Below are positions 21,810-41,432 of a DNA stretch of 41,871 bases, in pieces. A program made the translations under genes and the position numbers. The stretch's first letter is position 1. Each line of letters begins with the position of its first letter. The stretch is taken from NCBI GenBank assembly GCA_030683155.1, contig JAUXMV010000020.1, positions 1 through 41,871 of the forward strand, given 5' to 3'. The notes under the pieces are model-generated. The model was given only the letters and a program-made list of their open reading frames with translations. It had not been told where the DNA came from and ran no database searches. Source of the DNA: Bacteroidales bacterium. Lineage in GTDB: Bacteria; Bacteroidota; Bacteroidia; Bacteroidales; F082.

Positions 21810-22163
21810 AGATGCATTTTTTAGAAAATAAAAAACTCCCTAAAATAAATTCTTGTGATATGTAAGCTTTAATGAATCAAAAAGGAAAAAACTCCTTGAA
21901 AATTCATTGAAAAACTGAATCTCTGATTACACTTTTCCTTAACTATTCAAGTAAAAAATACAGCTTGATTTACCTTTTTGAAGTTTTTGGCGATATTCAG
22001 CGAAGGCATCCGCCAGAATAAAAATCTTCAGGATTTATGGCTGTAAAGTTGTAAAAAGGCCTTAAAAAGGCATATTTGTAACGGAGCGGACAAGTTAAGG
22101 AACACAGCGGACAGCGTTTTATGCAATCGATTGTAATTTTGACAGGCAAATAAATATGTGATC
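21810..22163. other. Intergenic region upstream of the PUL operon, with nested hairpin
   Basis: About 350 bases without a gene; the likely site of the operon promoter and of HTCS binding. It holds a nested inverted repeat at 21871-21908 (AATGAAT / ATTCATT outside, AAGGA / TCCTT inside) without a T-run, and a small hairpin GCCTTAAAAAGGC at about 22059-22071. A -7-like TAATTTTG lies at 22134-22141, 22 bases before the likely start codon, but I found no -33 partner. Confidence 0.4.
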
Positions 22164-23210
22164 ATGGATATCTCAAAACGCTTCCCGCAAAACCCACTTT
22201 TACGTCCATCTGACCTTGAGCCAGGCATCAAAGGCATGGAAATTTTATGTCTGCTTAATCCAGGAGTATTCAGGTTTGAAGGAAAAATATGGCTTTTTCT
22301 GCGTGTTGCCGAAAGGCCAAAACAGATCGAAGGAAAGATAAGTTTCCCTGTCTATAATAATATAGGTGAAATAGAAATCCTGAGTTTTGATAAAAGCGAT
22401 CCCGATTTGGATGCTTCTGATCCCAGAGTTATAAATTACAAGAAAAAAGATTATCTGACAACGCTATCCTATCTGCGACTTGTTTGCAGCGATGATGGGA
22501 TAAATTTTTATGAGCCCGAAGGCTATTTACCTGTTTTCGGACAAGGTGAACTCGAAACTTTTGGCATTGAAGATTGCAGAGTTGCAACAATGGAAAATGA
22601 GTTTTGCCTAAGCTTTACTGAGGTGTCCGGGTTTGGTGTGGGCGTTGGTCTGATACGCACCAAAGACTGGAAAAACTTCTCCCGTGAAGGGATGATCTTT
22701 CCGCCTCACAATAAAGACTGTGCCATTTTTGAAGAAAAAATCAACGGAAAATATTTTGCCCTCCATCGGCCAAGCAGTCCCGAACTGGGAGGCAATTACA
22801 TATGGCTTGCCGAATCACCTGACATGATTCACTGGGGCAGACACAAATGTATTGCTACTGTAAGGCCGGGCATGTGGGATTCGGCACGTGTCGGAGCTGG
22901 TGGTGCTCCCATCAGAACTGAAAAAGGCTGGCTCGAAATTTATCATGGCGCAAACAGCGAACATCGCTATTGCCTTGGCGCCCTTTTGCTCGACATTAAT
23001 GATCCATCAAAGGTGATTGCGCGAAGCATATATCCAATCATGGAACCAACAGAGGCTTATGAACAAACAGGTTTTTTTGGCAATGTAGTCTTCACAAACG
23101 GGCATTATGTTGTCGGAGATGATATTTTCATGTACTATGGTGCCAGCGACGAAGTGATTTGTGGCGCCAAACTTTCTATCTCCGAAATCCTCAATTCCCT
23201 CACCCAGTAG
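22164..23210 (+). CDS. Glycoside hydrolase family 130 enzyme (probable mannoside phosphorylase)
   Basis: GH130 enzymes cleave beta-mannosides, most by phosphorolysis to mannose 1-phosphate. No signal peptide is present, so it acts in the cytoplasm. In the 349-residue product the five-bladed propeller pattern is visible, with the family's catalytic Asp in GIEDCR (about D137), preceded by the substrate-contact region ASDPRVI, and later ALHRPSS (the His/Arg region that contacts phosphate in phosphorylases), HWGRHK, GAGGAPIRTEKGWL and YYGASD. ATG at 22164 is chosen over the in-frame GTG at 22158. The MFS gene follows after 14 bases. Some GH130 members are hydrolases; the retained HRP motif favours a phosphorylase, but linkage specificity cannot be read by eye. 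Confidence 0.88.
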   Translation: MDISKRFPQNPLLRPSDLEPGIKGMEILCLLNPGVFRFEGKIWLFLRVAERPKQIEGKISFPVYNNIGEIEILSFDKSDPDLDASDPRVINYKKKDYLTTLSYLRLVCSDDGINFYEPEGYLPVFGQGELETFGIEDCRVATMENEFCLSFTEVSGFGVGVGLIRTKDWKNFSREGMIFPPHNKDCAIFEEKINGKYFALHRPSSPELGGNYIWLAESPDMIHWGRHKCIATVRPGMWDSARVGAGGAPIRTEKGWLEIYHGANSEHRYCLGALLLDINDPSKVIARSIYPIMEPTEAYEQTGFFGNVVFTNGHYVVGDDIFMYYGASDEVICGAKLSISEILNSLTQ

Positions 23211-23224
23211 CAATATCCACTTCA

Positions 23225-24478
23225 ATGATATCCAAACTAACTACCGAATATCAGTTCTTTATGGCTATGCCGCACAACATGCGGATTCTGCTAATCACCA
23301 ATATGCTATATTCCCTGGTATTGCCGGTGGTGGAAATTTTTATGGCTGCCTATATTATGCGCTATTTTTCCGACACAAGTTATGTTGCCATGTTTCAGGT
23401 TGCCATGTACACAGGAATTATCATCACCTCATTGGCAAATGGGTTTCTTCTGAAAAATTTCAAAGTTGCCCATCTGTATAGTTTTGGCATTTTACTGAGC
23501 GGACTTTCGATGGTAGGCATGATGATGGTCGATAATATTACGATATTTGGCTTATTGGTCTCCGGAACCCTCATTGGTGCTGCATCAGGATTTTTCTGGA
23601 CCAATCGCTATCTGATGGCCCTGAATACAACATCCGATGACAACCGCAACTATTTTTTCGGTCTGGAATCTTTCTTTTTTACGATTTCAAATATCACTGT
23701 GCCCGTATTAATAGGTGTGTTGCTTGCATATTTTGATGGAAGCATGATTTTTGGATTTGAACTTGATATCCTCAAAGGTTATCGCATTGTGACTTTGATG
23801 GTTTTTGCAATTACGATTCTGGCGTGTTTTTCGCTTGCAAAAGGAAAATTTGAGAACCCAATTCAAAAAGACTTCCTCTACTTTCGCTTTGACAAACTAT
23901 GGAATAAACAAATTTTACTGGCGGCTTTAAAAGGTCTTGTGCAAGGATTCCTCGTAACAGCCCCGGCCATGCTGATCATGAAATATGTTGGAAAAGAAGG
24001 CTCTCTGGGGCTTATTCAAGGTGTCAGCGGAGGGTTAACGGCCATTTTGATTTATCTTTTAGGACGTTTTGCCAAACCTAAACATCGCATCTTCATTTTC
24101 AGCATTGGCATTACAATTTTCCTGATTGGAACAATCGTGAATGGCATTGAGCTATCGATGATCGGTGTCATTGTATTTGTTTTGTGTAAGGTGTTTTTTC
24201 AACCCTTGCATGACCTCGCATACTATCCAATTATGATGAAGGTCATTGACGTGGTATCCAAACGTGAAAACCGAAACAATTATGCTTATATCCTGAACCA
24301 TGAATTTGGTTTATACGCAGGAAGGGTTGTTGGTCTGGGCTTGTTTATTTTTCTCGCCTTCTATGTTTCTGAGACATTTGCACTTCGTTATTCTCTTATT
24401 ATCGTTGCGCTGCTCCAGATGCTTTCCATTCCACTTGCTAAGAACATTTTGAAAAACTCATATAATACAGAAAAATGA
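23225..24478 (+). CDS. MFS-type inner-membrane sugar transporter
   Basis: Predicted major-facilitator carrier, 417 residues, with roughly 11-12 hydrophobic helices in two halves separated by a charged central loop (about residues 215-235, KGKFENPIQKDFLYFRFDKLWNK). A frame open from a TTG at 23159 overlaps the GH130 gene, but the ATG at 23225, 14 bases after the GH130 stop, gives the natural N-terminus. Its stop overlaps the next start as ATGA, so translation is probably coupled to the lipoprotein gene. In known mannan loci of Bacteroidetes a cytoplasmic GH130 phosphorylase is paired with an inner-membrane carrier for the disaccharide; the same role is inferred here. Confidence 0.85.
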   Translation: MISKLTTEYQFFMAMPHNMRILLITNMLYSLVLPVVEIFMAAYIMRYFSDTSYVAMFQVAMYTGIIITSLANGFLLKNFKVAHLYSFGILLSGLSMVGMMMVDNITIFGLLVSGTLIGAASGFFWTNRYLMALNTTSDDNRNYFFGLESFFFTISNITVPVLIGVLLAYFDGSMIFGFELDILKGYRIVTLMVFAITILACFSLAKGKFENPIQKDFLYFRFDKLWNKQILLAALKGLVQGFLVTAPAMLIMKYVGKEGSLGLIQGVSGGLTAILIYLLGRFAKPKHRIFIFSIGITIFLIGTIVNGIELSMIGVIVFVLCKVFFQPLHDLAYYPIMMKVIDVVSKRENRNNYAYILNHEFGLYAGRVVGLGLFIFLAFYVSETFALRYSLIIVALLQMLSIPLAKNILKNSYNTEK

Positions 24479-26196
24479 AAAAAGTTTTGCTCTACTTTTC
24501 AGTAATCTCATTGTTTGCAGGTTTAATATCGTGCAAGCCTCAAAATGGTGAAGCTGTTGCTCAGACTGACATTGCCCGCATCGCTCAGATGCCTGAGATT
24601 CCTCAACCCCTGAAAATTATCGACTGGAAACAGAAAGCACTCCTTTTTGACAGTTTGGCATTCGACTTCAACAATACAGCAGCTTATGGACCACTAATCT
24701 GGCTTGATAGTGCAAAGCGTAATATTGACCAGGTGACATTTGGCCTTTATACAGTGATAAATGATGTGCGTCAGGGAAATGACAACTACAATGGTGAATT
24801 CCATGAGGCGCTTACTTCACTCAATGCATTGATCAGTGCGGGTTTGCTCGGTATTGACAAAACAAATCAGCATGGATATAATTTTGTAAAAATGTCACAA
24901 AACTATTTCAACTCTGACACAGAATGGAATATTGTGATGAACAACACAAATCCCGAAGTGGCTATGGCCGGTGGTGGCTATGGCCGCGACTGGTGGTATG
25001 ATGTCTATCCAAATGTCTTATTCTATGGCGTTGCAGCCCTTTATCCTGATGTTGAAAATACCGAATTTATTCAGCGAAAGGTTGCAGATCAATTCTATAA
25101 GGCTGACTCGACACTGAATGGAAACTACGACTTTTCATATTTCGATTATGCCCAAATGAAAGGAATGCGCAACCATATCCCATGGCAACAGGATGCGGCG
25201 GGCGGACATGCATGGGTGCTGCTTTCGGCATATAACCGCTTTGGTGATCAGCGTTATCTCGATGGTGCCAAAAGCGCTACCGAAGTTTTAGTAAATCAGA
25301 CTGAGAGTCGCTTTTACGAAATTTTACTCCCATTTGGCGCTTACGTGGCTGCGCGATTGAATGCAGAACATGCCACCAATTATGATGTCAAAAAATTGCT
25401 TGACCACACCTTTGATGGTTGCCAGTCGCAGGAAGGTCGTTACGGATGGGGTGTTATCGCAGAGCGATGGGGCGATTTTGATGTTCATGGTCTGCAGGGA
25501 AGCATCACCGATGGTGGTGGTTATGGATTTTTCATGAATTCAGTTGCTATGGCATGGCCTCTTGTTCCAATGGTAAAATATGAGCCTCAATTTGCGAAAA
25601 CAATCGGGAAATTCATGCTGAATGTTGTCAATGCATCGCGTCTTTTTTATCCCGATGAAGTGGATAATACGCATCAATGGCTTCCAGAAATGAAAAATAT
25701 TACAAATGGCATCATCGGATATGAGGGTGTCAGGAAGATGGATGATTTCAACAAGCCGGAACTAGCAGGCATTTCACCTGTTTCGCTTGGTGATGGCCCA
25801 AAATGGGTCGAGGGTCAGCCGGCAGAAACGATGTTTAGTCTCTACAGCACCTCAATTGCCGGCGTTTTTGGCGCCATCGTTAACACAACAGATGTTGAAG
25901 GGATTCTGGCACTTGATTGTAACGCTACTGACTTTTACGCTGAGACACCCTACCCTGTTCATCTGTATTATAATCCATATAATTTATCAAAATCAGTGAC
26001 TTATAAATCAGAAAGCTCAGTTGACCTCTTCGACATTGTATCAAAAACCTATCTGGCAAAAAAATCTGAAGGCAATTTTACAATCGCCATCCCCGCTGGA
26101 GAAGCTGTAATTGTGGTTGCCCTGCCAGCTGAAACGAAACTAAAAAAAGCAGGTTCAAAAATCAAAGCCGGTGATATAGTTATCGCATTCAAATAA
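24475..26196 (+). CDS. Lipoprotein of unassigned family 'A', probable (alpha/alpha)-type carbohydrate-active enzyme
   Basis: I cannot assign a named family. The 573-residue product has a lipoprotein signal with lipobox LISC (C20). The residues after the Cys (KPQNGE) lack the acidic pair of a surface-export signal, so it may face the periplasm. Motifs: IIDWKQKALLFDSLAFDFN near residue 45, GIDKTNQHG, GRDWWYDVYPNVLFY (about 176-190), then helix-rich segments (GGHAWVLLSAYNRFGDQRYLDGAKSA), GWGVIAERWGDFDVHGL, GGGYGFFMN, and a C-terminal beta-rich part of about 100 residues ending in IPAGEAVIVVALP. Helix pairs with conserved W, D and Y followed by a beta-sandwich suggest an (alpha/alpha) barrel enzyme. 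The first half of the protein at 34857 is a clear paralogue. It starts within the MFS stop codon (ATGA). Confidence 0.7.
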   Translation: MKKVLLYFSVISLFAGLISCKPQNGEAVAQTDIARIAQMPEIPQPLKIIDWKQKALLFDSLAFDFNNTAAYGPLIWLDSAKRNIDQVTFGLYTVINDVRQGNDNYNGEFHEALTSLNALISAGLLGIDKTNQHGYNFVKMSQNYFNSDTEWNIVMNNTNPEVAMAGGGYGRDWWYDVYPNVLFYGVAALYPDVENTEFIQRKVADQFYKADSTLNGNYDFSYFDYAQMKGMRNHIPWQQDAAGGHAWVLLSAYNRFGDQRYLDGAKSATEVLVNQTESRFYEILLPFGAYVAARLNAEHATNYDVKKLLDHTFDGCQSQEGRYGWGVIAERWGDFDVHGLQGSITDGGGYGFFMNSVAMAWPLVPMVKYEPQFAKTIGKFMLNVVNASRLFYPDEVDNTHQWLPEMKNITNGIIGYEGVRKMDDFNKPELAGISPVSLGDGPKWVEGQPAETMFSLYSTSIAGVFGAIVNTTDVEGILALDCNATDFYAETPYPVHLYYNPYNLSKSVTYKSESSVDLFDIVSKTYLAKKSEGNFTIAIPAGEAVIVVALPAETKLKKAGSKIKAGDIVIAFK

Positions 26197-26238
26197 TTAA
26201 TAAAGCTTCATTCACTTGAAACCTTTAAAAACGATCAA

Positions 26239-29200
26239 ATGAAACGACTTATATTTTTAGTGTTATCACTTCTCACAGCGGGTCTTTTACAAGCCCAGAA
26301 TGCTGTTGAAGGAATCATTACTGATGGCAAAACGCAGGAAACCCTCATTGGTGCTACGGTCTCCATCAAAGGCACAACTTCGGGCGTAATAACAGATATG
26401 GAAGGGCGTTACCGACTGGTTTCAGATCAATTAACTGCCACTTCAGTATTGGTTTTTTCATACATTGGCTACACCTCCGTCGAACAAATTGTTGGCAATC
26501 GCAGCATCATTGATGTCAAACTTATGCCTGAACAATTTATGCTTGATGAGCTTGTTGTGGTTGGTTATGGAACAACAAAAAAACGCAATGTTCTGGGTGC
26601 AGTATCAAAGGTTGACAACAAAGAACTTACCAGAATCCCTGTCCCCGGTATAGATCAAGCGCTGCAGGGAAGGGTTGCCGGAGTTCAGGTTACGCAAAAT
26701 ACAGGTGCTCCCGGAGAGGGGGTTTCTGTCCGTATCCGTGGAGCAGGTTCAATCAATTCCAGCAACAATCCTTTATATATTGTTGATGGAATACCAACGG
26801 CAGATGCTTTAAATCTGCTTTCGTCCGGCGACATCGAAAATATTACTGTATTAAAAGATGCTTCTGCCTCAGCTATTTACGGATCACGCGCAAACAATGG
26901 CGTGGTATTGATAACAACAAAGAAAGGTAGTAAAGGGAAAACATTGGTTACCTATCGTGGCCAGACAGGGTTTCAACAAGCTACCAGATTAACAGAAATG
27001 GTCAATACAACGGATTATATCACCGTATATAATGAAGCGGCAACCAATGACAATTCATTTTTACCTCCAACGCTTGCGCGATCACTCATTAAGCCTGAAG
27101 ATACAGAAGGTTTTGCCAATGTAAATTATGTGGATGAACTGCTTCGGTCAGCTCCTATAAACTCCCATGAGATAAGCGTTTCGGGAGGAAATGAAACAAC
27201 AGATTTCCTGCTTTCTACTTCATTGTTCGACCAGAAGGGTATTATCAATGGCACAGGTTACACACGAGGAACCGTTAGGCTTGATTTAAATAATGAAGCA
27301 AACAGATGGCTAACTGTTGGCGTTAGTATGCTTGCCGGTAAAACTTCCAATGACATTATCGGCAGCTCAGGCGACGGCCGGGGTGGCAATGGTGGAAGTG
27401 TAATCAGGTATGCATTTTTCCGCAATCCGGCAATCCCCGTAAGATTCAGTGATGGCCGATTTGTTGACAGGCCGGCAGAATATTTCGGAAGACAGATATT
27501 TGATTCATTCCTTGGCGATGGTTATAATCCAATCGGCATGACAGAAAAAAATGAGCACACCAGAAATGACGACAGTTATCTGGGCAAGGCATATTTCACA
27601 GCGAAACTTACAAGCAAACTCAAATTCACAACCAATCTTGGTTTAGATTACAGAAACTCAGAAACGCGACGGTTTTTTCCCACATGGGGAACACTAAATC
27701 GCATCAATGCAAGAAACGGCCTCAATATCGCAAACGAGCGAACAGCCAATATGACCGTCAACAATCTGCTCAACTATGAAACTTCATTTGGTCCTGCACA
27801 TAATTTCTCAGCAATGTTAGGTTTTGAAGCCTTGAAAAATGGCGGAAAAGGACTATATGTTACTGATTCAGATTTCCCGATTGAACAAACAGAATTATTA
27901 TTTATCGGCAATGGACTTGGCAACAAAACAAGCAGCCAGAATGAATACAACTCAACATTGGCTTCATTCTTCGGACGTGTAAATTATGATTTCAAGGAGA
28001 AATATTACCTCTCTGGAACCCTCCGCAGGGACGGATCATCGCGATTTGTTGGTGAAAATAAATGGGGAACCTTTTATTCTCTATCGGCTGGATGGCTTCT
28101 GAAACAAGAGGGATTTCTGAAAGATGTAGCCTGGCTCGAAAACCTGAAACTTCGCGCCGGCTATGGTGCCATTGGAAATCAGGAAATAGGCCTTTATGCC
28201 TACAGCGACAGAATTTCGCCTTATTTTGATTACCCTTTCGGCAATGAGTCAAACAGCGGTTATGCACAAACTGCACTTGGTAATGACAATCTTAAATGGG
28301 AAACAAGTTTTCAGTATAATGCCGGAATAGATGCTGAAATCTGGAAAGGAGCGCTCGCTTTCTCTGTCGATTACTTTTATAAGGTTACAGAAGATATGTT
28401 GGTAAAAGCACCCAATCCACCTTCCGTAGGCTATGCAGAATCTGCCTGGATAAACAGTGGTTCGGTCATGAATACAGGACTTGAACTTGAAGCCATTTAT
28501 CGTCAAAACAAAAAAGAATGGGGCTACACAATCGGAGGCAACCTCACCTTTTTGAAAAACGAAGTCCTTAAACTAGACGCACCTCTTTTTGGAGGTTTGG
28601 TTGAGTCCGGCATTTATGCTACGAGAACTGAAGTGGGTCAGCCTATCGGTTCATTCTATCTGCTTGAAATGGAAGGCATTTTTCAAAATGAAACTGAAAT
28701 TTTGCTCTCTGCATTTCAGGGCAACACCATTAAACCTGGTGACGTGAAATTCAAGGATCAAAATAACGATGGTCGCATCGATAATAGCGACCGCGTTCAT
28801 ATGGGAAGTGCCATACCAAAAATAATCGCTGGGGCAAACTTTTCTGCATATTATAAAAACTTCGACCTGAATTTGTTTTTTCAAGGAGCTTACGGCAATA
28901 AAATTTATGTGCAAGTCAATCAGGATATCGAAGGTTTCTACCGCGGATTTACTGTCACACAGCGATATTTTGACGAACGCTGGACGGGCGAAGGATCTTC
29001 AAACACGCAACCTAGGCCATCATGGACATCAAAATCGAACAATGCACGTCCTTCATCGCGCTTCCTCGAAGATGGCTCATACATCCGTCTTAAAAACCTC
29101 CAGTTAGGTTATACTATTCCTGAAAAAATTCTGGCTATGGCTGGCGTCGCAAAAACCCGTCTGTATGTTTCAGGCACAAATCTCCTGACCCTGACGAAAT

Positions 29201-29331
29201 ACAGTGGTCTTGACCCGGAAATGACAGTCAGCGACAACTCAAAAAATGAAGGTGACCGTTCTGCAGGAATCGACTGGGGAACTTATCCCTCAGCTATGAC
29301 AATCATGTTTGGTATTGACATCACCTTTTAA
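26239..29331 (+). CDS. susC-like: SusC-like TonB-dependent outer-membrane transporter
   Basis: Imports glycan fragments across the outer membrane with energy from TonB. The 1030-residue product starts with a signal peptide (to about residue 19, LLQAQ), then a carboxypeptidase-regulatory-like domain (about 22-100, VEGIITDGKTQETLIGATVSIKGT), the SusC family signature ELVVVGYGT near 108, a plug domain (ALQGRVAGVQVTQNTGAPGEGVSVRIRG, NPLYIVDGIP, ENITVLKDASASAIYGSRANNGVVLI) and a long beta-barrel ending in TIMFGIDITF. Length and motifs are typical. The SusD partner follows after 12 bases. Confidence 0.97.
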   Translation: MKRLIFLVLSLLTAGLLQAQNAVEGIITDGKTQETLIGATVSIKGTTSGVITDMEGRYRLVSDQLTATSVLVFSYIGYTSVEQIVGNRSIIDVKLMPEQFMLDELVVVGYGTTKKRNVLGAVSKVDNKELTRIPVPGIDQALQGRVAGVQVTQNTGAPGEGVSVRIRGAGSINSSNNPLYIVDGIPTADALNLLSSGDIENITVLKDASASAIYGSRANNGVVLITTKKGSKGKTLVTYRGQTGFQQATRLTEMVNTTDYITVYNEAATNDNSFLPPTLARSLIKPEDTEGFANVNYVDELLRSAPINSHEISVSGGNETTDFLLSTSLFDQKGIINGTGYTRGTVRLDLNNEANRWLTVGVSMLAGKTSNDIIGSSGDGRGGNGGSVIRYAFFRNPAIPVRFSDGRFVDRPAEYFGRQIFDSFLGDGYNPIGMTEKNEHTRNDDSYLGKAYFTAKLTSKLKFTTNLGLDYRNSETRRFFPTWGTLNRINARNGLNIANERTANMTVNNLLNYETSFGPAHNFSAMLGFEALKNGGKGLYVTDSDFPIEQTELLFIGNGLGNKTSSQNEYNSTLASFFGRVNYDFKEKYYLSGTLRRDGSSRFVGENKWGTFYSLSAGWLLKQEGFLKDVAWLENLKLRAGYGAIGNQEIGLYAYSDRISPYFDYPFGNESNSGYAQTALGNDNLKWETSFQYNAGIDAEIWKGALAFSVDYFYKVTEDMLVKAPNPPSVGYAESAWINSGSVMNTGLELEAIYRQNKKEWGYTIGGNLTFLKNEVLKLDAPLFGGLVESGIYATRTEVGQPIGSFYLLEMEGIFQNETEILLSAFQGNTIKPGDVKFKDQNNDGRIDNSDRVHMGSAIPKIIAGANFSAYYKNFDLNLFFQGAYGNKIYVQVNQDIEGFYRGFTVTQRYFDERWTGEGSSNTQPRPSWTSKSNNARPSSRFLEDGSYIRLKNLQLGYTIPEKILAMAGVAKTRLYVSGTNLLTLTKYSGLDPEMTVSDNSKNEGDRSAGIDWGTYPSAMTIMFGIDITF

Positions 29332-29343
29332 TCAATCTGAGCA

Positions 29344-30891
29344 ATGAAAACAAAAATCAAAGAAATATCAAATGCTTTTAAAACAAGGTTTATGAAAGCT
29401 TATGCAACACAAAATGAAGGATTAGATTACTTTTTACCAGCGCTGGCAATCTTTATTTTGTTGACCTCCTTCAGTTCGTGCAAAGATTTTCTCACAGAAG
29501 AACTTAAAGGCAGTTTTTCATCAGAAACATTTTTCCAAAACGACAAGCAAGCCATTCAGGCTGTAAACGGCGTGTATGATGCTGTTGCATTTAACAGCTT
29601 CAGCAATGCGCTATGGGTTTTCGGTGACGTAGCTTCTGACGATGCTGTAAAAGGTGGCAATCCTGGCGACCAAAGTGAAATTACCTATATCGATGAGTTT
29701 AATGCCGATGGAAACAATGGAATCATAAGTAATTACTGGGCCTTCACTTACGAAGCAATTGCCAGGGCAAACAATGTAATTGCCAACGTTCCTGCTGTGC
29801 CGATGGAGGATGAACTAAAAAACAGAATTATCGGTGAAGCAAAATTCCTCAGAGCCTACAGCTACTTCAATCTGGTAAACGTATTCGGAAAGGTCCCTTT
29901 GAAACTTTTACCTCAGCAAACTCAGGCAACTATTCATGTGCCTTTGAGCGAAATTTCTGCTGTTTATCAACAAATTGAAAAAGACCTGAGCGATGCAGCA
30001 ATAGTTTTGCCTGTATCCTATAACTCGCCGGATAAAGGCCGTATCACAAAAAGCGCTGCCTTGGCCATGCTGGGAAAAGCGCGAATTTATCAGCAAAAAT
30101 GGTCGGAAGCCCTGAGTAGCTTTCAGCAAGTGGAAGCACTTGGCATCCATCGCCTTTTGGCAAACTATGCCGATAACTTCAAAATAGCTTTTGAAAATAG
30201 TGAAGAATCTATTTTTGAGATTCAGCATAAAACCGGCAGCAATCCTTTTACCGGAAATGCATTAAATCAATGGTTTGCACCTCCGGCTGAAGGCGGATAC
30301 TATTTCAATGCACCTACTCAAAGTCTGGTCGATGCCTTCGAAAGAAGTGTTACCGGAGAAGCAGATCCTCGCCTGGATGCCTCAGTTGGCCGTGATGGTC
30401 AGCTTTGGCTGAATGGTGAACTTTTCAGCGCAACATGGTCGCCAACAGGTTTTCTCACAAAAAAACATCAGCAACCGTTAAGCGAAATACCCTCATCACT
30501 TAAAGGAGACGGCGACCTCAATTATATTTATCTGCGCTATGCCGATTTGCTGCTAATGAAAGCAGAAGCCTTCAATGAAACAGGAAAAGCAGATTCAGCA
30601 ATCGTAAACCTCAACAAAGTGAGACTACGCGCCAGAAACAGTTTCAATGGTGAAATACCATCTGATCTTCTTGCCAACATCACTACTACCGACCAAAACC
30701 AGCTTAGAACAGCCATCAGAAAAGAAAGAAGGGTTGAGCTAGCGCAGGAATTCCACAGATATTTTGACCTTATGCGCTGGGGCAAGGCAGAAGCCGAGGC
30801 GGCTTTGGGTCAGGATTTCAATTACGATACCAAAAGACATTTCCCTATTCCTCAAGCAGAAACAGATGCCAATCAAGGAATTAATCCCTGA
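29344..30891 (+). CDS. susD-like: SusD-like surface glycan-binding lipoprotein
   Basis: Lid and binding partner of the SusC transporter on the cell surface. The 515-residue product has lipobox SFSSC (C46) after an unusually long N-terminus; a start at the internal ATG (29392) would give a 30-residue signal peptide and is a reasonable alternative. After the Cys, KDFLTEE begins the usual SusD N-terminus. Typical SusD/RagB features follow: AIQAVNGVYDAV, RAYSYFNLVNVFGKVPL, TKSAALAMLGKARIY (TPR-like helix), YLRYADLLLMKAEAFNETGKADSAIVNLNKVR, and the C-terminal RKERRVELAQEFHRYFDLMRWGKAE. Position directly after SusC confirms the pair. Confidence 0.97.
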   Translation: MKTKIKEISNAFKTRFMKAYATQNEGLDYFLPALAIFILLTSFSSCKDFLTEELKGSFSSETFFQNDKQAIQAVNGVYDAVAFNSFSNALWVFGDVASDDAVKGGNPGDQSEITYIDEFNADGNNGIISNYWAFTYEAIARANNVIANVPAVPMEDELKNRIIGEAKFLRAYSYFNLVNVFGKVPLKLLPQQTQATIHVPLSEISAVYQQIEKDLSDAAIVLPVSYNSPDKGRITKSAALAMLGKARIYQQKWSEALSSFQQVEALGIHRLLANYADNFKIAFENSEESIFEIQHKTGSNPFTGNALNQWFAPPAEGGYYFNAPTQSLVDAFERSVTGEADPRLDASVGRDGQLWLNGELFSATWSPTGFLTKKHQQPLSEIPSSLKGDGDLNYIYLRYADLLLMKAEAFNETGKADSAIVNLNKVRLRARNSFNGEIPSDLLANITTTDQNQLRTAIRKERRVELAQEFHRYFDLMRWGKAEAEAALGQDFNYDTKRHFPIPQAETDANQGINP

Positions 30892-30968
30892 TAAACAGTC
30901 TATTTATTTATAATTCAATTCACTAATCAAAATAATTCTAAACTTATTAACCCAAAAAAATTAAAAAA

Positions 30969-32036
30969 ATGAAAAATTTCATGAAAATGCAAACTTTGCT
31001 GCTTATGCTTATCATAAGTTCAGCTATGATCCTCGGATCATGTAAAGATGATAAAGATGATATCATCGAAGGTGACAAAACCGAACTCAACGCGCTTATC
31101 GCACAAGCCGAAACCCTTGCCAATGCAGCCACTGCAGCGGATTACCCTCAAGCAGCCATAGACAATTTCAAAGCTGTTTTGCAAACTGTTAAAACTGCAG
31201 CTACGGAAAAACTCACTCAGGCTCAGATTAACAACCTTGTTACACAGCTAACTGAAGCAAAAAACTTGTTTGTAAGTCAGGCTTATGGCTTTATCGATGA
31301 GTCGCTTTATCTCACTGCCGGCTGGAAATTTGACGAAGGCACCGGAACTACTGCAACAGCATTCTCAAACACTGCACATGTTGCAACTTTTAAAAGAGGA
31401 AATACTGTAATACTTGGCAATGCAGCCATGATGCCCAGCTGGGTTGATGGTGTAAAAGGCGGAAAAGCAGTTTCACTTGACATGGGTGCTCATCTTGAAG
31501 TTCCATACACTACCAGCTTCCTTCCTGCAAACATTACCATTTCTGTTTGGATTAAACCAACTTCACTTTATGAACACAATTACATTGTTTCACAAAACTA
31601 CTGGAATGGTTATAAACTACAGACGCAAGGCGGAGGAAAGCCATTCTTCACTTACAAAAAAGTTGATGGCGGTATCGTAGATGCTGACAATGAAACAGAC
31701 AATTCTATCAGAGTTAATCAATGGAATCACGTCGTGGTTTCTGTAAATGCAGCAACAAAAGAATTGAAGTTTTATGTTGACGGAACTTTAACAAAGACCT
31801 GGACAGAATCTGATAAAGGCATAGGACCACTTACACAAACGCTTACATCTCCTGATCCTCAGCCGTTTATTATTGGTTGTGTTGCAACAGATGCTGAGCT
31901 TGCTGCCAATTTTATGGAATGGACCAATGCTGATAACCTTGGATATTTCAAAGGCGCAATTGACGAATTGAAAATTTATAACATCGCGCTTAGTGATGGT
32001 CAGGTCGCCAAGCTTTTCAATGATGAAAAGCCATAA
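30969..32036 (+). CDS. Surface lipoprotein with FIVAR and LamG domains (SusE-position glycan-binding protein)
   Basis: Probable surface glycan-binding protein. In 355 residues: lipobox ILGSC (C25) followed at once by KDDKDD, which matches the K-(D/E)2-type signal that sends lipoproteins to the Bacteroidetes cell surface. Next comes a FIVAR-like helical spacer (about 38-100, with ALIAQAETLANAATAADYP and LTQAQINNLVTQLTEAKNLF), then a LamG/concanavalin-like domain (about 110-353) with WKFDEGTGTTATAF, ITISVWIKP, NQWNHVVVSVNAATKELKFYVDG and FKGAIDELKIYNIALS. It lies 77 bases after SusD. A LamG domain also occurs in the T9SS protein at 34857, so both may hold the same polymer. Binding role is inferred. 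Confidence 0.85.
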   Translation: MKNFMKMQTLLLMLIISSAMILGSCKDDKDDIIEGDKTELNALIAQAETLANAATAADYPQAAIDNFKAVLQTVKTAATEKLTQAQINNLVTQLTEAKNLFVSQAYGFIDESLYLTAGWKFDEGTGTTATAFSNTAHVATFKRGNTVILGNAAMMPSWVDGVKGGKAVSLDMGAHLEVPYTTSFLPANITISVWIKPTSLYEHNYIVSQNYWNGYKLQTQGGGKPFFTYKKVDGGIVDADNETDNSIRVNQWNHVVVSVNAATKELKFYVDGTLTKTWTESDKGIGPLTQTLTSPDPQPFIIGCVATDAELAANFMEWTNADNLGYFKGAIDELKIYNIALSDGQVAKLFNDEKP

Positions 32037-32274
32037 ACTAAAAAACTTTTGTGGTTAGTGTTTTAAGGTTGAGAATGGTCTGATTGCACTGTGTAAAAGC
32101 AGACTTTTGGACCATTCTTATTTAAACCCTATTATCAAAAAGGTTAAATAAATAAAGTATTATAATTTAGAACAGCTGTTCAATTCAACTCTGCTGAGAC
32201 CTAAACTATTCAGTACCAAACCTTAATCCGTTTCCAAAAAAAACATCTTGTTAATGTCTCCAAAACTGACTCTT
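32037..32274. other. Intra-operon gap with nested inverted repeat and palindrome
   Basis: The largest gap inside the PUL operon. It carries a 9-bp inverted repeat AGAATGGTC (32072-32080) / GACCATTCT (32110-32118) enclosing a smaller hairpin AAAAG-CAGA-CTTTT, and a 12-base palindrome GAACAGCTGTTC (32170-32181). No T-run follows the stem directly, so it is not a standard terminator. No promoter box seen. Confidence 0.5.
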
Positions 32275-34764
32275 ATGAAAAAAAACCAAAACGGATTATC
32301 ATTGTTATTGACATTAATCCTTTCCATCGGCATCGGTTTATGCGTAAAAAGCCAGCAACTCAATCTCAGGGTGGCAGGAGATTCGTTGCAGGGTTTTCGT
32401 ATTGAAATCCTTGATGGCAACCAAATACTCGTTACAAATAATGAGGTTTTCAGGATCAGGCTTTTCAATACTGATGCCAGTACGACAGCAACAATAGACT
32501 GGAAAGCTGATCATTACAGCGGCAACGACACCTTGATCATTTTAAAACGAGACACCTATATTCCTGAATTTGACGCCAACCTGAGTATAAGTGTCCGTTA
32601 CGAAATTATCAATAAAAATGTGGTGAAAAAGACTTTTAATCTTTTCCAGCCTTCGATGCCAGACATGTTTTATATTTTGGAGGAGACATCGCTGCCGGCG
32701 GAAAAACCCCTTCATTACATAACTTTTGAACATGAAAATTTTCCGGGAGGATTGGTGCATGAAATGTATCCGGCTGTTGGCTGGGTAAACCAAAAGCATC
32801 AGGTAGTTGGATTTCTGACTGATGCCGGTTATTTGAACCATTTTACAAGAACTACCCGCCGCCGTTTCAGTGGCCGTGGAGGCGGTTTCGTAGGCATGCG
32901 AAAACTCCCTGACCCGGCTTTGTTCTCTGTTTCATCACTAGATGAGCAACATCTGCAAAAAGATTATGTCCGGCAATCATTTGGCGAAATGTACAACCTT
33001 GATTCCGGACAAAATAAAACTATAAAAGCTGTTGGGGATCATCAAAAAGTTGGAAACGTTCAGGTTGAAAGCAATGACAGCATCATCTCTCTGAGTCTAT
33101 TTCCATCTGGAAGGTCTGGAATAGAATATATTGCACCATTTAAAGACCAGAAAATCTATACCATTTCATTTCAATGTAAAGGCAATTCAAATGTTGCCCT
33201 GAAATTGTTTCGAATAAAAAATGGCATTAAAACCCTTGAACTTGAAGAAGGTGTAAAATACATCGATAATTTTCCTGCCAATGAAAACGAATGGACACAT
33301 TTTAAAGGCAGTATATTTATTCCATACATTGAAAATGATTCCATTTCCTTATTTATAGGCACACTATCCGGTAAAGAATCCTGGTTACAAATAAAAAACC
33401 TGCATATTACAGAGCACTTCCCGGAAAGCGAAGCCTACAACTTACTCCCTTTGGGGAAAGCCATTCAAAAAACAACCTATGTTTTTGTTGAACCCTACAC
33501 TTCCCACAAAAATTTCATGATCTCAGCCCAAACAAGACTGGCTGAAGGCAAAGGTTTTAAAGGCACGGAGATAGAGAAAATGCTCTATGCCAATTTAAAT
33601 ATGCTCACATGGATCACATCGGTAAATGATATGACACCTTTTGTTGTTCCTAACATGAATTATTCTCCGGATATGTACAACCGCGATGCATTCTTCTCTA
33701 TCGTAGCTACTTACAACAAAGAACTTAATCTGGCAATATGGGAACAATGGGGAAAAACACAGACAAAAAAAGGCGGAATTGGCACAATCATCACTCCATA
33801 CATGGGTTCCGTTGAGGCCAAAGACAACGAAGCAACTATTCATTGGCTTATCTGGGCCATGCTAAACAAACGCCGCTTTGGTGTCGATCTGCCACAAAAC
33901 AAAATCAAAATGGCTGTCGAATATTTGCTCAATGAATTTGACAGCGAAAAAGACGGAATATGCAGGTCGCACTTTTCCCTTAGTCAGGTTGATATTGTTG
34001 ATTTCAACCCCAAAACAGATCGGTTGGCGGTAAATCAGGGAATGCTTGCTATTGCACTCCGTACAATCAATGAACTTGGATTTGAAATACCGGAATCCTA
34101 TATGTTAAAAGTCGAACAAAAATACCGCGACTTTTACGACCCACAGCGGAAACACCTTCTTTTTGACCGCCAATTTCCTGATATCATCTCGCTGAATGAT
34201 CTGGAACCCGAATTCTATTCACTTTGGCTTTTTGACCGGCCAATACTCACAAGTGAAATGGTTATCAACCATCTTGAAAGAACCCCTGATCTTAATAAAA
34301 CGGATGCTTCACCCCACCCCGAAATGGGCACAACTGCACCTATTTGTGTGCGATTAACAAAAGATGAAACCGGATTTGCATATCTTAGCGGCGATTACCA
34401 GCCCTTCGAAGCATTTGGCGAAGCCAATTACAGCGATGGACAAAATGATGGATATTACTATAATGGCGGAAGCTGGATGCGCGCCGAATATTGTGCCTAT
34501 GTGGTTGGATTGAAGCACGGCTGGGATAAAGCAGAAAAACGAATGGAGAACAGAATCTGGGCAGAGATTCATCTCAATCCGAAATGGCCCTTTAGCAAGG
34601 AATTCATTCCAACAAAGTGGACAGATACCAATAAATGGTGGGTTTCAACCAAAGGACTGAGCTGGAATGTATTCATTCTAATGGCCAACGAACTTGCTGG
34701 TTTACGCACAGCAGATATGGATCCTGACTTTGAAAAAGACATCAACAGATCCACTGCGTATTAG
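32275..34764 (+). CDS. Large exported protein, probable six-hairpin (alpha/alpha) glycosidase-like enzyme, family unassigned
   Basis: I do not recognise a named family. From the ATG at 32275 (the frame opens at a TTG at 32248) the product has 829 residues with a signal peptide (MKKNQNGLSLLLTLILSIGIGL). The first roughly 400 residues are beta-rich, with a possible inserted carbohydrate-binding-type sandwich at about 225-385 (ISFQCKGNSNVALKLFRI...). From about 415 on it is helical, with motifs seen in (alpha/alpha)6 glycosidases: PNMNYSPDMYNRDAFFSIVATYN, DNEATIHWLIWAMLNKRRFG, FYSLWLFDRP, DGYYYNGGSWMRAEYCAYVVGLKHGW. N-terminal sandwich plus helical barrel is the layout of several glycoside hydrolase families of this clan. 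Location periplasm or outside. Candidate acids are the Asp/Glu in NRDAFF and DNEAT. Confidence 0.6.
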   Translation: MKKNQNGLSLLLTLILSIGIGLCVKSQQLNLRVAGDSLQGFRIEILDGNQILVTNNEVFRIRLFNTDASTTATIDWKADHYSGNDTLIILKRDTYIPEFDANLSISVRYEIINKNVVKKTFNLFQPSMPDMFYILEETSLPAEKPLHYITFEHENFPGGLVHEMYPAVGWVNQKHQVVGFLTDAGYLNHFTRTTRRRFSGRGGGFVGMRKLPDPALFSVSSLDEQHLQKDYVRQSFGEMYNLDSGQNKTIKAVGDHQKVGNVQVESNDSIISLSLFPSGRSGIEYIAPFKDQKIYTISFQCKGNSNVALKLFRIKNGIKTLELEEGVKYIDNFPANENEWTHFKGSIFIPYIENDSISLFIGTLSGKESWLQIKNLHITEHFPESEAYNLLPLGKAIQKTTYVFVEPYTSHKNFMISAQTRLAEGKGFKGTEIEKMLYANLNMLTWITSVNDMTPFVVPNMNYSPDMYNRDAFFSIVATYNKELNLAIWEQWGKTQTKKGGIGTIITPYMGSVEAKDNEATIHWLIWAMLNKRRFGVDLPQNKIKMAVEYLLNEFDSEKDGICRSHFSLSQVDIVDFNPKTDRLAVNQGMLAIALRTINELGFEIPESYMLKVEQKYRDFYDPQRKHLLFDRQFPDIISLNDLEPEFYSLWLFDRPILTSEMVINHLERTPDLNKTDASPHPEMGTTAPICVRLTKDETGFAYLSGDYQPFEAFGEANYSDGQNDGYYYNGGSWMRAEYCAYVVGLKHGWDKAEKRMENRIWAEIHLNPKWPFSKEFIPTKWTDTNKWWVSTKGLSWNVFILMANELAGLRTADMDPDFEKDINRSTAY

Positions 34765-34856
34765 CTTTCTGATAACTAATGTTAAACTTGCTAAGGCTTA
34801 TGTTTTTCAGAGGTATCAGTCAAAACTCAAATCTATCATCAATTACATAACTTAAA

Positions 34857-37800
34857 ATGCACATAATGAACCGTTTCATACTTACAATACAGCTAACAGT
34901 CTTTTCCATCCTGTTGTTTGGGCAAACCGGGCAATTAAGCATTTCCCGCATTGATTTGATGCCTGATTTGCCGGCACCGTTGCACATCAGAGATTGGAAT
35001 ATGGTTACAATTGATTACGACTCATTCGTTTTTGATGTAAATAAAACGGGTCAGTATTTACCATTGTCACGGCTGGGTACTCAGGGACAGTTCAATTATC
35101 CTGACAACACTCCCTTGTTTCTTGATTCGTATGTTGGATCAAATGGCCATCTGAATCATGGTGAAGCCATCAACATAATGCCTGCAGTGATTGGAGCCTC
35201 ACTCGTTGGTGTAGACAAAAGCAATCAAAACGGACAAAACTGGGTAGCCAAAACAAAAGACTTTTTTAACCTGAAGAACGGGCAAAATGTATATCTGAAC
35301 AACTATTCAGCCACTTCTGGTGGCGACTGGTGGTACGATCTGATGCCCAATGTTTACTTCTATCAGCTCAAAACGATGTATCCGCAGGCAGCACCGGAAT
35401 TCACATCGCAGTTTACCTCTGTTGCCAATCAGTGGCTTTATTGCGTCAATCAACTGGGCGGAAGCACAACACCATGGACAGTTCCATACATGAACTACAG
35501 AGCTTTCAATCTAGCGACAGGATTGCCACTCACAACCGGAGTGCCGGAACCTGAATCTGCCGGAAGCATTTCATGGTTGCTTTACAACGCTTATTTGGTA
35601 ACTGGCGAAAGAAAGTACTTCGAAGGCGCTCAACTTTCAATGGATTTTCTGGCTGGTTTTAATTCAAATCCATCTTATGAACTTCAGTTGCCATATGGCA
35701 CAATAGCCGCTGCACGCATGAATGCTGTTGAACGCACCAACTATCCGGTTCAGAAACTGCTCGACTGGAGTTTCAACCGCGGACATCTCCGGGGCTGGGG
35801 AGCCATCGTTGGCAACTGGGGCGGCTATGATGTTTCTGGCCTCATTGGCGAGGCAAATGACAATGGAAATGATTATGCTTTTATCATGAACGGCTTTCAA
35901 CAGGCAGCTGCTTTGGCCCCTCTGCCAAAATATGATAAAAGATATGCTAAAGCTATTGCGAAATATATTCTGAATGTTGCAAATGCCAGCCGACTTCTCT
36001 ACTGGAACGCACTGCCTCAAACCCATCAGGATTCTTATAACTGGGCCTCTGTGAATGACCCAACAGCCTGTATTCCTTACGAATCAATGAAACAAGTATG
36101 GCAGGGAAAAAGCCCTTTTGCCATGGGTGATGCGATAGGCGGCGGATGGGCTGCAACGAATTTATCATTATACAGTGGCTCAAGTGTTGGGTATCTTGCT
36201 GGCATCATCAATACAACAAATATTCAGGAAATTCTTCAAATTGATTTGAATAAAACAGACTTTTACGGCGATAATGCCCACATTTCATATTTGTATTTTA
36301 ATCCAACTTCTGAAAGTAAGACAGTTCATGTTGAGCTGCCATCCGGTACATTCGGCATCTATGAAACACTCACTGAAACTGTTTTGCATACTTCTGCAAA
36401 TAGTTCTTTCCAGCTTACAATTCCTGCAGGAGAAGCACGTTTAATCAGCCTTTTTAATCCGGCACTGACACCTGTAAGCAGCGATGGACGACTATATGCC
36501 GGTGAGAATGTTTTGGATTATCATTATCTCTATGATTTCTCTGAGAACATTCGCATAAAAACGATCTCTACTGATTTGAATCCATTGATCATAAACAGCA
36601 CATTTACTGCCTATTGTGAACCTGGAAACGTCCAGCCCGGCGATCAGGTGCAATTTTCATGGTTTATGAATGGCGTTCTTATTCCGGGAAACAATCAGTC
36701 ACAGGTTAATCTAACAGCACCTTCATTTCCGATGCAACTTGTATTAAAATGCATTGTAAGTCATAATGGTAAAACAGCAGAAGACAGCCTTCAAATCAGC
36801 GTTGTAGAACGCATCCCCACGCCACCGGCAGTGAATGGAATTCAATCCAATTCAGCTTATATACCAACAGGTGGGTCAAATACTTTCACTGCTTTGGTTG
36901 ATCCTTCTCCCGGGGAAGTATTGTCCTATAACTGGACTGCAACTACAGGCCAACTCAATCAGACCATTGGAAATACTGTGGTCTGGCAAGCGCCAGATAC
37001 TCCTGTTGTTGCAAATATCAGTGTGGAGGTGACCAATCAGGATTTGCTTTCAACAACAGTATCAATTGGTGCTTTAGTCAAAGACACGAGCCTTGCAACC
37101 CAAAATCCGATGATCTGGTATCCTTTCGACTCTAACAATTTCAATGCAGCAGCGAATATTCATCATGCTGTTGCTGTTGGTGTGTCGAAAACAGCAGATC
37201 CAAGAGGAATGCCAACGCTGGCGTATCGGTTTACGTCAGGCCAAAATATTATTTATACTGAAAATCATAATGATCTGAATTTTGGAGAGGCAGTAACATT
37301 GAGTTGCTGGGTAAAATGTGAGCAACTGAATTCAGAGAGATTCATCCTCTCACATGGGTCATGGCAACAGCGCTATAAATTATCAATAACACCCGAAGGC
37401 CTGTTGCGGTGGACCGTTAAAACAAATTCAGGAGTAGCTGATTTAGATGGAAGTGCGCCTATAGATTTGAATCGCTATTATCACGTAACAGCTGTCTATA
37501 CAGGCTATTCTATGGAATTGTACGTTGACGGAGTGTTTGATACTTTCAAAGAATTCAGTGGCATCATCCAGCCTTCCACAAAGCCATTTACAATAGGTCG
37601 CATGGATAATACTGAAACACTGTATGCATTGCGTGGCAGCGTAGATGAGGTGAAAGTCTGGGATAAGGAAATCCCTGTTTCACAGATTTCCGAATTAAAA
37701 GACCAATGGGCAACACCGGCAGGCCTGGGTGAAAATGATTTTTTTATTCGAGTTTATCCAAATCCGGCCAATGACATCATTTTTATTGAATTTCCAGAAA

Positions 37801-37985
37801 ATGCGAAAATTGAACAGGTTTTGCTTTATTCTTCAGACGGAAAAAAAGTGTCAGCCGTTCTATCTGGAATGCACAATGCAAAAATTGAGATGAAATTATC
37901 TGAAACTTCAGCAGGATTGTATTTGCTCAAGGTTATTCTTAAAAATGGACAAGTGTTTTCAAGAAAAGTCCTGGTAAAAATCTAG
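34857..37985 (+). CDS. T9SS-exported multidomain protein: family 'A' domain, Ig-like modules, LamG and sorting domain
   Basis: A 1042-residue protein (an ATG three codons later is also possible) with signal peptide. Residues about 20-538 are a paralogue of the lipoprotein at 24475: shared strings include GVDKSNQNG versus GIDKTNQHG, DWWYDLMPNVYFY versus DWWYDVYPNVLFY, RGWGAIVGNWGGYDVSGL versus YGWGVIAERWGDFDVHGL, NVANASRLLY versus NVVNASRLFY, and IPAGEA near the end. Two Ig/PKD-like modules follow (about 565-645 and 655-740), then a LamG domain (about 755-955, VTLSCWVKC...YHVTAVYTGYSMELYVDG...RGSVDEVKVWD), and a C-terminal type IX secretion sorting domain (about 965-1042, VYPNPANDIIFIEF...SAGLYLLKVILKNGQVFSRKVLVK). 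It should act outside the cell on the primary polymer. Catalytic function inferred. Confidence 0.75.
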   Translation: MHIMNRFILTIQLTVFSILLFGQTGQLSISRIDLMPDLPAPLHIRDWNMVTIDYDSFVFDVNKTGQYLPLSRLGTQGQFNYPDNTPLFLDSYVGSNGHLNHGEAINIMPAVIGASLVGVDKSNQNGQNWVAKTKDFFNLKNGQNVYLNNYSATSGGDWWYDLMPNVYFYQLKTMYPQAAPEFTSQFTSVANQWLYCVNQLGGSTTPWTVPYMNYRAFNLATGLPLTTGVPEPESAGSISWLLYNAYLVTGERKYFEGAQLSMDFLAGFNSNPSYELQLPYGTIAAARMNAVERTNYPVQKLLDWSFNRGHLRGWGAIVGNWGGYDVSGLIGEANDNGNDYAFIMNGFQQAAALAPLPKYDKRYAKAIAKYILNVANASRLLYWNALPQTHQDSYNWASVNDPTACIPYESMKQVWQGKSPFAMGDAIGGGWAATNLSLYSGSSVGYLAGIINTTNIQEILQIDLNKTDFYGDNAHISYLYFNPTSESKTVHVELPSGTFGIYETLTETVLHTSANSSFQLTIPAGEARLISLFNPALTPVSSDGRLYAGENVLDYHYLYDFSENIRIKTISTDLNPLIINSTFTAYCEPGNVQPGDQVQFSWFMNGVLIPGNNQSQVNLTAPSFPMQLVLKCIVSHNGKTAEDSLQISVVERIPTPPAVNGIQSNSAYIPTGGSNTFTALVDPSPGEVLSYNWTATTGQLNQTIGNTVVWQAPDTPVVANISVEVTNQDLLSTTVSIGALVKDTSLATQNPMIWYPFDSNNFNAAANIHHAVAVGVSKTADPRGMPTLAYRFTSGQNIIYTENHNDLNFGEAVTLSCWVKCEQLNSERFILSHGSWQQRYKLSITPEGLLRWTVKTNSGVADLDGSAPIDLNRYYHVTAVYTGYSMELYVDGVFDTFKEFSGIIQPSTKPFTIGRMDNTETLYALRGSVDEVKVWDKEIPVSQISELKDQWATPAGLGENDFFIRVYPNPANDIIFIEFPENAKIEQVLLYSSDGKKVSAVLSGMHNAKIEMKLSETSAGLYLLKVILKNGQVFSRKVLVKI

Positions 37986-38156: not shown

Positions 38157-41432
<3,276 letters not shown>

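Follow-up and report, generated by a model that had tools for sequence, protein, structure and literature searches.

Two paralogous proteins encoded in the window (the whole 41,871-nucleotide stretch of DNA analyzed) define a protein family that is real, widespread and coherent, has a testable substrate and is new as far as the present comparisons reach. The reading that we favor, with guarded confidence, is that both are extracytoplasmic carbohydrate-active enzymes depolymerizing β-1,2-linked mannan or a glycan with β-1,2-mannose chains. This reading draws on a high-confidence barrel model whose nearest solved folds are GH76 enzymes, on six conserved acids, on gene order and on linkage to a GH130 gene.

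The two window proteins are paralogs

The first protein (24475..26196, plus strand; 573 aa), referred to here as short, is a predicted lipoprotein and candidate periplasmic depolymerase, annotated from the alignment, the fold model, the conserved acids and the LISC lipobox read from its sequence. The second (34857..37985, plus strand; 1,042 aa; Pfam and BLASTP), referred to as long, is T9SS cargo; "short/long family" denotes the relatives of both. On the same strand, the long protein comprises the family domain (residues 24 to 555; 34926..36521; BLASTP), a LamG domain (residues 798 to 945; 37248..37691; PF13385, E = 4.9e-21) and a T9SS type A sorting tail (residues 966 to 1039; 37752..37973), the last recognized as a T9SS C-terminal sorting domain by PF18962 (44.9 bits, E = 1.5e-11) and TIGR04183.

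BLASTP aligned residues 28 to 572 of the short protein with residues 24 to 555 of the long protein at 34% identity over 567 columns (288 bits, E = 3e-90). As almost the entire lipoprotein is aligned at this E value, the similarity is far above chance; a chance pairing was ruled out by the alignment, by the surveys of host-family, phylum and species genomes and by the gene-order counts. The original prediction, made from the letters of the sequence, that the lipoprotein and the N-terminal part of the 34857 protein are paralogs, one a lipoprotein and the other T9SS cargo, is borne out, and all the motifs that it quoted lie within the BLASTP alignment. Its range, 24475..36480, also covers SusC, SusD, a LamG lipoprotein and a third protein, ORF838. 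When the host genome was searched with the short protein, only two places matched, the short and long genes themselves.

The family has no curated name in the libraries searched

The catalytic part of both window proteins gave no match reaching the Pfam or NCBIfam cut-off. NCBIfam returned nothing for the short protein and matched the long protein only in its tail or LamG region, a PHROGs search of the window proteins returned nothing at E ≤ 1, and PDB sequence searches with each protein and with a 41-member profile gave chance-level matches only, with no solved relative. The sole Pfam match of the short protein was PF06662 (glucuronyl C5-epimerase C-terminus), at 21.9 bits against a cut-off of 23.3, and Pfam did not list this model for the long window protein. 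Across the family, 11 of 41 members matched PF06662 at E ≤ 0.1. When 10 short-type members were scanned singly, eight fell short of the cut-off, while L004 scored 23.3 bits, equal to it, and the sister ortholog L005 exceeded it by 0.8 bits (24.1 versus 23.3). The expectation that profiles would reveal no known family therefore stands for both window proteins but is qualified by L005, just over the PF06662 cut-off, and L004, at it. The family is without a curated name in Pfam, NCBIfam, PHROGs and the PDB and, by these sequence comparisons, is apparently undescribed; the original interpretation of an undescribed enzyme family is, as a whole, partly supported. No publication on this family or on a β-1,2-mannanase was found in a search that left subscription journals largely outside, where a description is possible.

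Fold and conserved acids

The AlphaFold2 model (pLDDT, 92.6) consists of an (α/α) barrel and a C-terminal β-sandwich, the architecture originally predicted. In the structure comparison, the nearest solved folds were GH76 mannanases, the closest being the endo-α-1,6-mannanases 6u4z, BT3792 (4c1s) and BT2949 (4v1s) and also BT_3782 (4mu9). The model shares the (α/α) barrel of GH76, but a common fold is not by itself proof of membership. Assignment to GH76 was rejected because no PF03663 match and no conserved Asp-Asp pair were found: neither window protein matched PF03663, the GH76 Pfam model, at E ≤ 1, the model was absent at E ≤ 0.1 from the list for 41 members, and the neighboring Asp-Asp pair of GH76, visible in a three-row GH76 alignment and named in PDB titles of GH76 entries (D136/D137 and D163/D164 variants), has no conserved counterpart in 157 family domains. 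The family also differs from GH76 in an identity of 8 to 10% and in its additional β-sandwich. Comparison of the family with a GH76 profile by hhalign gave a probability of 0.4%, a weak comparison in that the GH76 profile held three rows only.

Conserved acids, anticipated in the original prediction, are present, as six positions (E111, D172, D/E240, E282, E417 and D440) are 99 to 100% conserved across the 157 domains. It is very improbable that the proteins are noncatalytic and only bind glycan; LamG proteins do adjoin them and enzyme activity is only predicted, but the acids are strictly conserved in both clades of the family and the barrel is of an enzyme type. From fold and gene context we infer a catalytic function, with hydrolysis favored over other chemistry. 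Further structural matches comprised N-acylglucosamine 2-epimerase and mannose isomerase folds and one polysaccharide lyase, which, together with the weak PF06662 match, would fit an epimerase or lyase with an (α/α) barrel acting on uronic acid or mannobiose. We regard such an enzyme as improbable, since the PF06662 matches of L005 and L004 each span about 52 of 188 profile positions, corresponding to a single helical hairpin, a cytosolic sugar epimerase is disfavored by T9SS export and SusCD, and the neighborhood shows no sign of uronic acid use.

Distribution and phylogeny

Family members were identified in 15 of the 173 genomes of the host's taxonomic family, with carriers G029, G031 and G032 harboring the long type only. 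The phylum set gave matches in 23 of 395 genomes, four of which (G386, G524, G535 and G548) were weak and partial (E = 1.5e-4 to 9.6e-4) and were not counted as members. A scan of species genomes yielded at least 559 confirmed stretches with family members, and the 80 named loci are the best 80 of these, ranked by the short protein and biased to close relatives. Because of this leaning, 20 further loci were taken, made up of 18 clear phylum carriers other than the host genome and two long-type carriers from the host family.

A tree of 118 domains separated a short clade (69 rows) from a long clade (48 rows and, in addition, the divergent L047), a split indicating that both window copies stem from an old duplication. 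Five "short" labels inside the long clade are contig-end artifacts; the sixth belongs to L047, which forms a divergent long branch. The LamG region of the window protein was matched by each of the 51 complete long proteins examined, and its sorting tail, for which a single sequence served as the query, by 22 of the 51. Of the 97 complete short-type proteins, 59 were found to carry a lipobox.

Some copies depart from the paired arrangement. A second short-type copy replaces the long copy at L095, L103, L105, L108, L111, L122, L123, L125 and L129, with L123 carrying two additional short-type copies in that place; several loci with a second short-type copy in the long-copy position come from rumen genomes, judging by title. 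The family member at L017 (G018:C7) contains many internal stop codons and is apparently decayed.

Gene neighborhood

All genes of the window locus described here lie on the plus strand. Upstream of the short gene are an HTCS (hybrid two-component system) regulator (17751..21809; Pfam), a GH130 gene (22158..23210; PF04041, E = 8.2e-46) and an MFS transporter gene (23159..24478; PF07690, E = 6.2e-13), the stop codon of which overlaps the start of the short gene. Between the short and long genes are those for a SusC-like TonB-dependent transporter (26239..29331; Pfam), a SusD-like glycan-binding lipoprotein (29344..30891; Pfam), a LamG lipoprotein that is a candidate surface glycan-binding protein (30969..32036; PF13385, E = 5.8e-21) and ORF838 (32248..34764; Pfam and PDB searches), a third protein without a family.

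Loci in which the short gene is preceded by more than 3.5 kb and followed by more than 6.5 kb (49 of the 80) were termed roomy. By tblastn, MFS, SusC and SusD were each present in 48 of the 49 and GH130 in 47, while 43 had the LamG lipoprotein and 7 had ORF838; ORF-based counts for the 80 loci were slightly lower owing to overlapping ORFs, and the tblastn figures were used. The presence of both SusC and SusD in 48 of the 49 agrees with the PUL setting originally predicted. The order GH130-MFS-short copy on one strand was retained in 47 of the 49 roomy loci, the MFS and short genes being separated there by a median of 33 bases, and 34 of the 42 loci offering more room contain a second family copy. 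At L120, the short gene occurs without GH130, MFS, SusC, SusD, the LamG lipoprotein or ORF838. Among the 20 further loci, tblastn identified GH130 near the family gene in 18; the misses, L148 and L154, both touch a contig end, and both genomes carry GH130 elsewhere. ORF clusters gave 17 of 20, an overlapping ORF having masked the GH130 of L149, and the tblastn count was used here also.

Other genes accompany the family less regularly. ORF838 is 40 to 76% identical to seven relatives, reached no Pfam cut-off and has no solved relative in the PDB, and its single-sequence structure prediction (pLDDT, 34.6) was too low for use. A relationship between ORF838 and the GH94-like gene of other loci found no support (0.1%). 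Its position varies, lying upstream of the HTCS gene in L070 and between GH130 and MFS in L076. Alongside the long type, seven of the 20 further loci (L148 and L150 to L155) encode a conserved protein of approximately 850 aa, which is GH94/GDE_C-like in L150. Downstream of the long copy, a protein of approximately 1,358 aa is encoded in L145 (3574 to 7650) and L146 (12262 to 16341), that of L145 containing five LamG stretches, fn3 and a T9SS tail.

Beside the long copy, the window encodes a LacZ-type GH2 (38178..41432; NCBIfam, 1031.6 against a cut-off of 999). It was rejected as a part of the system, as it is unmatched in the 16 kb past the long copy in the sister genome L189; it is likewise unmatched in the 2 kb remaining on the L190 contig after the long copy. 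GH2-labeled ORFs were found in none of the 80 loci, where the sequence often stops close to the long copy, but more distantly related GH2 genes are present in 8 of the 20 further loci, which counts against dismissing GH2. An α-amylase-type gene lies in or beside the cluster in 8 of the 80 loci (L074, L082, L085, L097, L112, L113, L119 and L121) and likewise at L158 and L160, and the two tested, from L097 and L160, were both assigned to GH13 by Pfam.

Co-occurrence of the family with GH130

All 20 genomes of the further loci have GH130, compared with 43 of 118 phylum genomes above the cut-off. In the 173 host-family genomes, a window-type GH130 (at least 67% identity) was found in 12, each of which also has a family match (in G018, the decayed copy); G025 has a 43% GH130 match and no family member. 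In the phylum set, 22 genomes carry a window-type GH130 at 58% identity or more (G374, with a partial match, and G421, with a 43% match, were excluded), and the family is present in 10 and absent from 12 of these. When the GH130 regions of the 12 genomes lacking the family were inspected together with those of G488 and G551, where GH130 lies away from the family gene, neither MFS nor a family gene was found beside GH130 in any of the 14. The counts of presence and absence indicate that GH130 often occurs without the family, whereas the short enzyme rarely occurs without GH130. L184 and L159 form a natural pair of this kind, GH130 alone versus GH130-MFS-enzyme: they have downstream genes in common, and the MFS and enzyme genes adjoin GH130 only in L159.

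The GH130 partner suggests a β-1,2 linkage

The original prediction named no substrate and overlooked the GH130 gene, which lies outside 24475..36480 and is the main clue to the substrate. In the PDB, the window GH130 is closest to Uhgb_MS (9eqq, 9erg and 9erh; 583 bits, residues 3 to 348), with the title of 9erh naming a complex with 1,2-β-mannoside, and next closest to Lin0857. Lin0857 is described as a β-1,2-mannobiose phosphorylase, and Uhgb_MS as a mixed-linkage mannoside synthase that, according to a table in the same source, also accepts α-1,2-mannobiose (PMC8950772). Of the two GH130s of L150, the 300-aa protein scored 193 bits against Lin0857 and 161 bits against TM1225, a β-1,4 enzyme (PMC8950772), and the 482-aa protein is closest in the PDB to a 1,2-β-oligomannan phosphorylase. 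The GH130 of L143 is closest in the PDB to Lin0857, while that of L162, beside the most divergent family member, exceeds the cut-off of the NCBIfam model for β-1,2-mannosidase BT3780 (641.8 against 550). The GH130s of distant loci belong to other subtypes, yet those checked point to β-1,2 enzymes, and it is from these proteins and the window GH130 that a β-1,2 linkage is suggested.

Other indicators of linkage are less direct. The window GH130 scored 412.6 bits against NF050092 (β-1,2-mannobiose phosphorylase), below the equivalog cut-off of 550, and both L150 GH130s fell below the NCBIfam cut-offs for β-1,2-mannobiose phosphorylase models; as NCBIfam listed only β-1,2 models and no β-1,4 competitor, it is a weak test of linkage and the PDB comparisons were preferred. 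The window GH130 contains the motif GIEDCR, with Glu in the region of residue 138, and the Glu-Asp motif was found in 64 of 64 GH130 ORFs from the 80 loci and in 15 of 22 from the 20 further loci, the other seven being long forms outside the pattern searched. This Glu stands where GH130_1 and GH130_2 have Tyr (PMC4264767). The group with the Glu motif also includes a β-1,3 enzyme (PMC8950772), so the motif alone is no proof of β-1,2 specificity.

Several observations count against the β-1,2 reading, namely, the listing of Uhgb_MS, which is the closest GH130 of solved structure, among mixed-linkage synthases (PMC8950772), the scores of the window and L150 GH130s below the phosphorylase cut-offs, the seven of 22 ORFs without the motif, the 12 of 22 phylum genomes with a window-type GH130 and no family member, L120, and the α-amylase-type genes at 8 of 80 loci. 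The strongest rival is a mixed glycan with β-1,2-mannose on another backbone, in which the family would cut a different linkage, for example in an α-mannosidic backbone as GH76 does, leaving GH130 to handle only the released β-mannoside. We consider this unlikely: the nearest solved folds are GH76 enzymes, Uhgb_MS also uses α-1,2-mannobiose (PMC8950772), and α-amylase-type genes in some loci and GH2 genes in 8 of the 20 further loci are compatible with such a glycan, but the β-1,2 relationship remains constant while the GH130 partner varies in subtype between loci, and GH76 was not found in the host genome (it exceeded the cut-off in one genome among 60 from the host's taxonomic family).

Proposed route and comparison with known mannoside systems

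If β-1,2-mannan depolymerization is the function, the T9SS-secreted long copy would cleave the polymer outside the cell, in endo or exo mode, and the fragments would be imported by SusC/SusD. The short copy would then cut them in the periplasm, yielding a disaccharide or short oligosaccharide that the MFS protein would carry into the cytosol for phosphorolysis by GH130, giving mannose 1-phosphate and mannose. The idea that the same linkage is cut in two compartments was part of the original prediction; the T9SS tail of the long protein and the lipobox of the short protein agree with it, although just 59 of 97 short-type proteins showed a lipobox.

Phosphorylases and exo-mannosidases for β-1,2-mannosides have been described (PMC4264767, PMC4599007 and PMC8950772), and no enzyme breaking the β-1,2-mannan polymer was found in the literature covered, which excluded most subscription journals. 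Tentatively, the family might be a dedicated β-1,2-mannanase family, perhaps the first for the polymer, in a widespread PUL pairing a secreted with a periplasmic copy; if so, its spread through Bacteroidota would make β-1,2-mannan a common carbon source in nature. Such an enzyme would also be useful as an analytical tool, given that β-1,2-mannose is present in Candida, trypanosomatids and bacterial O-antigens (PMC4264767). The family is directly testable, as it is represented by at least 559 confirmed genome stretches, its fold is predicted with high confidence, and both candidate acids and a concrete substrate can be named.

Three known systems are comparable in part. The β-1,2-mannosidase BT3780 is a GH130 enzyme (PMC4599007), and the L162 GH130 that passes its NCBIfam model adjoins a divergent family member; BT3780 is a β-propeller, a fold unrelated to that of the short/long family. 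The β-1,2-oligomannan phosphorylase cluster described from Thermoanaerobacter combines GH130 with ABC-transporter genes (PMC4264767), as do some long-type loci, where such genes lie near the family in L147 and L150, and the GT4-like gene of L150 is a further resemblance, but the Thermoanaerobacter cluster differs in listing a GH5 enzyme. Finally, β-1,4-mannan PULs, described as importing mannobiose for phosphorolysis by GH130 (PMC4264767), resemble the window locus in combining an extracytoplasmic cutter, a transporter and a cytosolic GH130, whereas the window GH130 appears to belong to the β-1,2 group and its putative cutter is of another family.
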